A program made the translations under genes and the position numbers. DNA of 64,000 nt, taken from NCBI RefSeq assembly GCF_014204715.1, contig NZ_JACHLY010000001.1, positions 186,001 through 250,000 of the forward strand, read 5' to 3'. This document shows positions 12,650 through 55,891 of this stretch, piece by piece. The notes under the pieces were generated by a model. It saw nothing but the letters and a program-made list of their open reading frames with translations. It had not been told where the DNA came from and ran no database searches. The stretch comes from Streptomonospora salina. GTDB lineage: Bacteria; Actinomycetota; Actinomycetes; Streptosporangiales; Streptosporangiaceae. Position 1 is the first letter of the stretch. Each line of letters begins with the position of its first letter.

Positions 12650-12742
12650 TCCAGAGTGGCCTCCTCCACGCGGTCCTTGGTGCCTGAGAGGTTACTGGGG
12701 AGTGTTGCCCCGTCGGCGCCCCGCTGTGGGGGTCTCTCCCGC
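12650..12742 (-). promoter_or_regulatory. Glycine riboswitch (single aptamer) in the gcvP leader
   Basis: Read on the minus strand from 12742, the leader shows the glycine aptamer in order. It starts GCGGGAGAGACC, has a variable C/G-rich P2 arm (CCCCCACAGCGGGG), then GCCGACGGGGCAAC. The diagnostic CTCTCAGGCACCAAGGACCG and ACTCTGGAG, which pairs with the initial GGAGAG, complete it. Only one aptamer is recognisable; the sequence between 12645 and the start codon lacks a second CUCUCAGGCA block. A small hairpin CGGCCC/GGGCCG (12613-12626) follows and may be part of the expression platform. The remaining upstream stretch, 12743-13026, contains the promoter region and the MerR gene's downstream end; nothing else is recognisable in it. 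Confidence 0.88.
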
Positions 12743-13026
12743 GTGGTATCGACGGCCGGATGTGGTGTCGACTCCGGTGTTCAGTTGTGGGTGGCCCATT
12801 ATCTACGGCACTTGCGGACCGTCGGCGGCGGGGGGCACTCCTGCGGGCGCCGCATCGCCTCCCCGCACGTCCCGACGCTACTGGATCGCGGCGCCGACGT
12901 GGAGTGGCCGCGACCGGACACGTGTCACACCCCCGGCGCGCGGCGGGGGTCGGCACGCGCGGATGGACGCGTGCCGATCAGGCGGAGGGCGCGTTCGGGG
13001 CCGCGGGGCCCGGGCGGGCGGGCGGT

Positions 13027-53171: not shown

Positions 53172-53690
53172 GTGTTCACCATGCGCCCCGCCACCGGCGG
53201 CGACCCCGACGCCGTCGCGGCGATGATCCACGCGCGCTGCGACTGGATGGAGGCACGCGGCGTGCCGTCGTGGCGGGAGGACGCCGGGGATCTGGCCGGG
53301 CAGGCCGCGAGCGGCGCCATGTGGGTTCTCCACGCCGGCGGGCGCGTCGCCGGGTGCACCACGGTCCTGCCCCAAGCGCCGCCCGGGGACTGGACACCGG
53401 AGGAGACGGCCGACCCGTCCCTGTACCTGTTCACCATGGTGACCGACCCTGCCTACCGCCGGCACCGGCCCGGAACGCTCATCGCATCGTGGGCGGTCGA
53501 CCATGCGGCACGGCACGGCCGAACCCGGGTCAGGCTCGGCTGCTTCTCCCCCGATCTCGCGCGCTACTACGAGCGGCAGGGATTCACGCCGGTACGCAAG
53601 CAGCAGCGCGCGGGGGCCCTCCAGTACCTGCTCGCCCGCCGAGCGGAGCGCCTCGACCTCGGCGCGCTCGGGCTGAGCTGCGGCACGTAG
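53172..53690 (+). CDS. GNAT-family N-acetyltransferase
   Basis: Protein of 172 residues with GNAT secondary structure: FTMRPATGGDPDAVAAMIHA, GAMWVLHAGGRVAGCTTVL, LYLFTMVTDPAYRRHRPGTL (acetyl-CoA loop R-x-x-R-P-G-T), RVRLGCFSPDLARYYERQGF. Acceptor is unknown. GTG 53172 opens the conserved part. It stands alone after the TetR gene. Confidence 0.85.
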   Translation: MFTMRPATGGDPDAVAAMIHARCDWMEARGVPSWREDAGDLAGQAASGAMWVLHAGGRVAGCTTVLPQAPPGDWTPEETADPSLYLFTMVTDPAYRRHRPGTLIASWAVDHAARHGRTRVRLGCFSPDLARYYERQGFTPVRKQQRAGALQYLLARRAERLDLGALGLSCGT

Positions 53691-53949: not shown

Positions 53950-54125
53950 TCAGGTCCCGTCTTCGGGCAGGGGCTCGATCGACTGGCGGTGCCGGAACAC
54001 GTTGTGCGGGTCCCAGCGCGTCTTGACCGTGCGCAACCCCGGATAGGCGTCCTTGTAGTACAGCTGCGCCCACGTCTGCTCGGAGTAGTTCCACTCGTCG
54101 GCGAGATCGGCATCGGGATGATCGA
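53950..54125 (-). pseudogene. C-terminal fragment of a berberine-bridge-type FAD oxidase
   Basis: Only the BBE end of an FAD-linked oxidase remains: IDHPDADLADEWNYSEQTW, AQLYYKDAYPGLRTVKTRWD, PHNVFRHRQSIEPL and stop at 53950. The whole flavin-binding part is missing; instead a TnpB-type element end abuts the fragment at 54126. Spacing is exact: the oxidase reading resumes with ATC GAT right after the element's GTCAA-like end. Confidence 0.8.
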
Positions 54126-54255
54126 TTTGACTTCCCGGCCTAAGGGCTCTCCTCAAACCCGGGGATTCCTACAGCGGCCGGGCGACCGCTTCGGTGGGTT
54201 CCTGCTTCATCGCGCTGCGCCCGACCAGGGTCCGGTCTTACCTGCGCTCCCTCCC
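54126..54255 (-). mobile_element. Right end/omega-RNA-like region of an IS605-type TnpB element
   Basis: After the tnpB remnant's stop, the minus strand reads GCAGGAACCCACCG, then GGAATCCCCGGG, a CTTAGGCCGGG stem-like segment and an end AAGTCAAA. From knowledge of streptomycete IS1341/IS605 elements this order (GGAACCC, GGAATCCCCGG hairpin, GTCAA terminus) is the 3' omega-RNA and right end. The repeat stem is imperfect here. The boundary at 54126 adjoins coding sequence of the BBE fragment. Confidence 0.65.
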
Positions 54256-54381
54256 CTACTGTGCGAGCTCCGCATATTCGCACAGCGGCGCCCAGGCTGA
54301 TGCCGCCGGCCCGGCGGCCGTGGCGACGTTGACCGCCGCATTGATGTCCCGGTCGAGGAAGGCCCCGCAGCCTTCGACTCG
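54256..54381 (-). pseudogene. TnpB C-terminal remnant
   Basis: Short frame EGCGAFLDRDINAAVNVA followed by ATAAGPAASAWAPL and ending ELAQ-stop at 54256. C-G-A-x-x-D-R-D-x-N-A-A-x-N is the hallmark of the TnpB zinc-finger/RuvC end, with the last RuvC aspartate in DRD. Upstream 54382-54549 holds only GC-rich sequence with no further TnpB, so the nuclease is inactive. Confidence 0.7.
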
Positions 54382-54549
54382 TCCTCGCCGCGGCTGTGCA
54401 GCCCGGCCCCGGCGCGGGACCGGCCGGCGACCGCGCTCGGCCCGCCCCGCGACGCGAAGCGGCGCCGCGCCCGTACCGGCGCGTCTCGGGCGCGGCGCCG
54501 CAGTCCGGGTGCTGCGTGCTCGCTTCGCACAGGAGCAACGGCCGAAGCG

Positions 54550-55788
54550 TCACCGCACCGGCAGCCCCGTGACCGCGCGGCCGATGATCAGGCGCTGGAT
54601 CTCGCTGGCGCCCTCGAAGATGGTGAAGATGGTGGCGTCGCGGTGCCAGCGCTCCACCGGGTATTCGCGGGTGTAGCCGTTGCCGCCGAGGATGCGCACG
54701 GCGTTCTGGGTGACCCAGGTGGCGGTCTCGCTGGCGTAGAGCTTGCTCATCGACCCTTCGGCTTGGGCGAAGTCCTTGTCGTTGCGCGCCATCCAGGCGG
54801 CCCGCCACACCAGCAGCCGGGCGGCGTCGATGCGGGTGGCCATGTCGGCGAGGGTGAAGGCGACGGACTGGTTGTCGGCGATGGGCTTGCCGAACTGCTC
54901 CCGCTGGACGGCGTAGTCGCGGGCGTACTCGTAGGCGGCGCGGGCGCAGCCCACCGCCATGGCGCCGACGCTGGGGCGCGAGGCCTCGAAGGTCTTCATC
55001 GCGGCCTGGCCCTTGGACGTGCGTCCTTCTCGGGCCCGGGCCAGCCGCTCGTCGAGGCGTTCCTTGCCGCCGAGCAGGCAGTGGCCGGGCACGCGGACGT
55101 CGTCGAGGACGACTTCGGCGGTGTGGGAGGCGCGGATGCCGTGCTTGGAGAACTTCTGGCCTTGGGACAGCCCGGGCGTGCGGGGCGGGACGACGAAGCT
55201 GGCCTGCCCGCGCGAGCCGAGTTCGGGGTCGACGGAGGCGACGACCACGTGGACGTCGGCGATACCGCCGTTGGTGGCCCAGGTCTTGGTCCCGTTGAGC
55301 ACCCACTCGTCCTTGGCCTCGTCGTAGACGGCGCGGGTGCGGATGGCGCCGACGTCGCTACCGGCGTCGGGTTCGGAGGAGCAGAAGGCGCCGAGCTTGA
55401 TGTCGTCGGTGCTGCCGAACATCTGCGGCGCCCATTCGAACAACTGCTCCTGGGTGCCGTTGCCGGCGACGGCGACGGCGGCCAGCGCGGTGCCGGTGAT
55501 GGACAGCGCGATGCCGGGGTCGCCCCAGTAGAGCTCCTCGAAGGAGGCGGGGATGCCCACGCCGCTGGGCTCCAGCCACTGGTTGGCGAAGAAGTCCAGC
55601 GAGTACAGCCCGATCTTGGAGGCCTCTTGCAGGACCGGCCAGGGGGTCTCTTCGCGCTCGTCCCATTCGGCCGCGGCCGGGCGGATGACGTCGCGGGCGA
55701 ATCCGTGCGCCCAGTCGCGGACGTCGCGGACGTCCTCGTCGAGTTCGAAGCCGAATCCGGTGGCGGGGGTGTCGGCGGTGTCGCTCAT
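54550..55788 (-). CDS. Acyl-CoA dehydrogenase family protein
   Basis: Flavoenzyme of 412 residues oxidising an acyl-CoA to the enoyl-CoA. Landmarks: [20 protein letters not shown] (flavin/substrate loop), [60 protein letters not shown], and [20 protein letters not shown] with [20 protein letters not shown]. The catalytic glutamate is taken to be in the FEGASE stretch. ATG 55788 with GGACGA upstream is preferred to the GTG at 55794. A palindrome at 55892 probably controls it. Exact substrate is not predictable. Confidence 0.93.
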
Positions 55789-55891
55789 CTGCACTCGTCC
55801 TAACTCGTCCTTGGGAGGGGTCTGGACCGGGAGGCCGCGGCGGCAGGGAGGCGGATCGCCGGTCCGGAGCCGGCGGGCGCGGCCGACTTAC

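Follow-up and report, generated by a model that had tools for sequence, protein, structure and literature searches.

An IS605-type element scar adjoining a truncated berberine-bridge oxidase gene in Streptomonospora salina

Known IS605-type remnants and the S. salina locus

The closest described systems are the IS200/IS605 elements of the IS605 type and the remnants they leave in genomes. The target of IS608 is given as TTAC in PMC8612924. In Haloquadratum, IS605 remnants that have lost their core or consist of termini only, the so-called PATEs, are described in PMC3119063, which also describes small mobile repeats targeting IS605-type elements, and the IS605 copies of Halanaerobium are described as largely degraded in PMC7290912.

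The locus investigated here lies in a 64-kb stretch of the Streptomonospora salina genome, termed the window (G000:C1:186001-250000; host genome G000, 5.6 Mb in 3 contigs). It was compared in a set of six genomes, the host and G001-G005, of which Streptomonospora alba YIM 90003 (G002) and Streptomonospora sp. PA3 (G005) are of the same genus as the host. L-numbers denote loci or element copies, L047 and L048 being those to which the oxidase fragment was aligned as DNA. As in IS605-type elements, a TnpB with PF01385 and PF07282 and a Y1_Tnp on the opposite strand are present, both in the sister copy L003, together with insertion 3′ of TAC and no target duplication, a hairpin near the right end and a right end as omega-RNA scaffold. 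Unlike such elements, the window copy has neither left end nor tnpA and has lost most of tnpB; the window holds only a sub-threshold C-terminal TnpB piece, and it is in L003 that a TnpB of the IS605 type is found. Loss of coding parts with right ends kept, seen here in L006, L008 and L108, resembles the Haloquadratum PATEs as PMC3119063 describes them, although those keep both ends and the window copy has one only. The likeness to Halanaerobium, as far as PMC7290912 describes it, lies in the small number of intact genes against a large number of complete, partial or fragmented copies, one of them interrupted by another element, and the difference lies in another host and another element sequence. 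As characterised in these two sources, known IS605 remnants are in line with the scar, which is ordinary genome decay and by itself alters no general view. It is nevertheless a cleanly readable case of disruption by a TnpB element and subsequent decay, with the exact junction, target and ancestral gene visible in sister species, and for an IS605-type family of Streptomonospora it yields the (Y)TAC target motif and the element ends.

The truncated oxidase gene and its junction

The C-terminal 58 codons and stop of a BBE (berberine-bridge) FAD oxidase occupy 53950-54126 on the minus strand and are equivalent to residues 468-526 in the S. alba oxidase. The fragment matches PF08031 (BBE, E 3.4e-13) and is 91% identical over 56 residues to an open frame of G002; the intact S. 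alba oxidase carries PF01565 (FAD_binding_4) and PF08031, of which the window fragment keeps BBE only. Intact oxidase genes were sought in the relatives and found at the syntenic position in two, Streptomonospora sp. PA3 and S. alba, where each lies downstream of the acyl-CoA dehydrogenase that in the window, too, is the conserved upstream neighbour of the fragment (54550-55794, minus strand). In S. alba the oxidase stands between this dehydrogenase and the GNAT acetyltransferase that is also the downstream neighbour in the window (53172-53690, plus strand), and the TetR gene on the GNAT side is conserved too. The dehydrogenase is present in G001, G003 and G004, and no oxidase was found in the stretches compared there. 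When the full-length S. alba oxidase was used as query against G000, the only matches besides the window fragment were one paralogue at 42% identity and four partial relatives of weaker similarity. Paralogues apart (best 42% identical), the missing N-terminal part was not found elsewhere in G000, and it has therefore been lost and not moved, in agreement with the initial annotation, which had described the oxidase N-terminus as gone.

The right end of the element stops at GTCAA (54131-54127) and base 54126 opens an Ile codon of the oxidase. By comparison, GTCAA is followed by ATCGATCATCCCGAT in the window, GTTAC by ATCAACTATCCTGAT in S. alba and GCTAC by ATCAACTACCCCGAT in PA3, the uninterrupted site in both relatives being TAC/ATC. 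The initial annotation had the element ending with GTCAAA exactly where the oxidase fragment begins. The two do adjoin, but alignment with the two relatives places the boundary at GTCAA/ATCGAT, the third A (54126) belonging to the Ile codon and not to the element. Such a junction in the oxidase is what transposition would leave. All six left ends displayed (five of the window's family and the more distant L110) are preceded by GCTAC, and TAC is found at four of the seven readable empty sites, those of the window, L005, L007 and L002. The other three have CAC (L009), CAG in three relatives (L008) and TGC, TGC and TGT (L006); the CGCT before the L006 target is common to three relatives and is thus host DNA. 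Relatives need not keep the ancestral bases, yet (Y)TAC is not established as the target for all of the sites.

The window can be aligned to S. alba as far as position 54408 and then again from 54119 by BLAST, or from 54126 by eye. The 1756 bp of S. alba between the BLAST blocks contain the oxidase promoter region and residues 1-467, and where S. alba has these ~1.76 kb the window has ~0.28 kb (~281 bp) of element relic. In the left breakpoint region (54382-54408, minus strand) the S. alba intergenic homology ends at 54408 and TnpB homology starts near 54370-54381, leaving about 27-38 nt (starting at 54371 or 54382 and ending at 54408) that match neither parent clearly. Because up to ~38 nt there have no clear parent, filler DNA acquired with the deletion, or a second rearrangement, is possible at this point. 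Left ends are present in other copies, and the window copy has a right end only: the left end of the element was not found in the window, where the best among the matches listed was 13 bp (E 0.039), which agrees with its reported absence.

We see directly the right end and its precise junction, an intact gene in the relatives, the parts that are missing here and the TAC of the empty site, and the simplest history for them is the one proposed at the outset, insertion followed by deletion. Very probably an IS605-type element was inserted into the BBE oxidase gene, and a deletion then removed the left part of the element together with the upstream part of the oxidase. The element, with divergent Y1 tnpA and tnpB, would have inserted directly 3′ of (Y)TAC, at the codon boundary that in the S. 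alba protein falls between Tyr467 and Ile468. The later deletion would have run from within tnpB to a point just beyond the 3′ end of the acyl-CoA dehydrogenase gene. The element would thereby have lost tnpA, its left end and most of tnpB, and the oxidase its promoter and residues 1-467, and what would remain is the TnpB C-terminus, a palindromic repeat, the right end and 58 oxidase codons. We infer this sequence of events, and also that the deletion arose by illegitimate recombination.

The oxidase DNA could also have been lost in one step, if two copies, one in the oxidase and one 5′-truncated between dehydrogenase and oxidase, had recombined by homology. Truncated copies are indeed common, 13 of the 14 right-end loci of G000 being without a full TnpB frame. 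A second copy would however be required, of which there is no trace, and the alignment made with S. alba has no element in the dehydrogenase-oxidase interval, so that recombination between two copies is considered very unlikely. Alternatively, TnpB itself may have driven the deletion by cleavage close to the element or to its donor joint, followed by imprecise repair. TnpB is described in PMC8612924 as cutting 15-21 bp from its motif, and a loss of ~0.5 kb starts 20 nt to the right of the right end in copy L006. At the window locus, a cut would be expected in the right flank, which is intact, and the loss is on the other side, and the right flanks of L005, L007, L008 and L009 are contiguous, so that L006 is a single case; a deletion driven by TnpB is judged highly improbable here.

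Right end, TnpB relic and sister copies

The right end or omega-RNA scaffold of IS605 type spans 54127-54247 on the minus strand. A covariance model (R1) built from nine other copies, with the window copy left out, matched 54127-54247 with 87.9 bits (E 5.6e-15), and the remaining two matches in the 64-kb window had E-values of 0.19 and 0.98. The omega-RNA or right-end-like sequence of the initial annotation is confirmed by this leave-one-out model, which also settles in the affirmative whether 54126-54255 has similarity to TnpB right ends. Across the six genomes the right-end model had 14 matches in G000, three in G002, one each in G001 and G005 and none in G003 and G004. The folding energy of single-stranded right ends was no better than that of shuffles (z -0.68, -0.40 and -0.34), and structure alone is therefore no evidence; the similarity to other copies is. 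The terminal hairpin (GGAATCCCC...GTCAA, 54127-54169, minus strand) measures 43 nt against 37 in other copies, with a stem and loop unlike theirs, and the GAGCGG before the end is lost. Aligned with the other G000 copies, the window copy has the right end GGAATCCCCGGGTTTGAGGAGAGCCCTTAGGCCGGGAAGTCAA; most of the others end in GGAATCCCC..GGGGAGCGGAAGTCAA or near variants and then run into unrelated flanks. An Rfam scan of the window returned a glycine riboswitch only, and the right end is not covered by any Rfam family at gathering score. The riboswitch aptamer lies at 12661-12751 on the minus strand, with 65.6 bits, above its Rfam gathering score.

By position only, the 20 nt of oxidase sequence adjoining the right end (54107-54126, minus strand) are a putative omega-RNA guide. 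The relic lies on the same strand as the dehydrogenase, ~0.3 kb downstream of its stop, the scaffold is mostly conserved and the genome has one intact TnpB, and it might conceivably have been kept as a stand-alone omega-RNA that is transcribed by read-through from the dehydrogenase and serves the L003 TnpB in trans. Against this, the terminal hairpin next to the putative guide is altered, the relic is in none of the relatives examined, and a search of G000 with TAC plus guide at up to three mismatches found, besides itself, one place with TGC and none with the right motif. Little probability is given to such a role, and the relic of the insertion and deletion is presumably an inert scar or nearly so.

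The TnpB relic (54250-54381, minus strand) comprises the third RuvC Asp and part of the zinc ribbon, and its translation ends, in a tail encoded by the repeat, with ...EGCGAFLDRDINAAVNVATAAGPAASAWAPLCEYAELAQ and a stop. PF07282 matches it below threshold (E 0.0027, profile search), and its DNA matches other copies in G000 with E-values down to 1e-40, which substantiates the degenerate TnpB C-terminus read at first from the letters. Window DNA 54120-54381 (minus strand) has 16 matches in G000, itself included, while the parent element aligns to the window at 54370-54159 only. The complete RuvC domain of TnpB is absent at the window locus, where the C-terminal ~40 residues are all that is left, and the relic therefore cannot be a nuclease.

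Other IS605-type copies with matching ends, a search suggested by the initial annotation, were found in G000. L003 (C1:167 kb; locus L080) encodes the only full TnpB among the 14 right-end loci, an uninterrupted protein of 406 residues with OrfB_IS605 (PF01385), TNB (PF07282) and HTH domains, scoring 348 bits against the NCBIfam TnpB subfamily model NF040570 (cutoff 100). Upstream of its tnpB, on the opposite strand, is a Y1_Tnp remnant (PF01797, E 3.4e-12) matched at profile positions 2-88 of 121, with the C-terminal part unmatched in L080, the sole tnpA frame scanned; TnpB and Y1_Tnp on opposite strands constitute the IS605 layout. No tnpA is present in the window copy. The tnpB of L005 is frame-shifted and L004, L006 and L107 are truncated; in the window copy, L007, L008 and L009 the TnpB alignment is at or near the C-terminal end only, and L016, L108, L109 and L110 have no TnpB match. 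Locus L002 represents the right-end part of copy L081, whose tnpB is 3.8 kb away. The TnpB catalogue (tblastn) covered 18 loci, with L010, L012 and L085 representing another TnpB lineage.

L008 (C1:279.6 kb), L108 (C1:1931.8 kb) and L006 are internally deleted, like PATEs or MITEs, and keep terminal or tnpA/tnpB remnants and the right end. In L006 (L135, G000:C1:4810000-4814500) the right flank is contiguous with relatives for 20 nt, after which ~0.5 kb is missing; this deletion starts where TnpB would cut and is not seen in four other copies. A general rule by which deletions in the flank would begin ~20 nt from the right end, at the TnpB cut position, was rejected, as L005, L007, L008 and L009 are contiguous with a relative from +1; at L003, L004, L016 and L108 the match to a relative starts further out.

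The palindromic repeat at the tnpB/omega-RNA border

Between TnpB relic and right end lies a palindromic repeat of ~45 bp (54250-54294, minus strand) with the arms CTGTGCGA/TCGCACAG, which supplies the premature TnpB stop (TAG) in the window. Its presence in two divergent TnpB lineages is the less ordinary part of the scar. Six places in G000 match the repeat at E 3.9e-4 or better (four weaker matches, with E above 1, were dropped from the count), and in all six it stands between tnpB sequence and right end or directly before the right end. There is one unit each in the window, L002, L010 and L011, two in L012 and three in tandem in L007. L007 has the right-end type of the window and L012 is of a TnpB lineage ~38% identical, and a single 81-bp stretch of the query is matched by the two at 100% and 99%. 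Beyond it, by contrast, their right ends align over only 23 nt, and the best of 200 shuffles reached the same score. The repeat was not found in plasmids, nor as a 12-mer in the other-species loci compared. It appears to have passed from one TnpB lineage to another, either independently or through local recombination. Tentatively, and with considerable doubt, it may be a mobile repeat of small size, homing to the tnpB/omega-RNA border in unrelated TnpB lineages, where it ends the TnpB frame early and sometimes grows as tandem units, like the SMR-A repeats targeting IS605 elements in a haloarchaeon, but actinobacterial and exactly at the omega-RNA 5′ border.

A further insertion was seen in copy L081 (G000:C1:1362500-1370500). 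Two separate elements as the cause of its 3.8-kb gap between tnpB and right end were rejected in favour of one copy with an inserted resolvase-bearing element. The insert looks like a Tn3-type element whose presumed transposase frame has no Pfam match; it is ~3.76 kb long, has a resolvase (PF00239) and inverted ends of ~38 bp, and is inserted in the repeat that separates tnpB from the right end.
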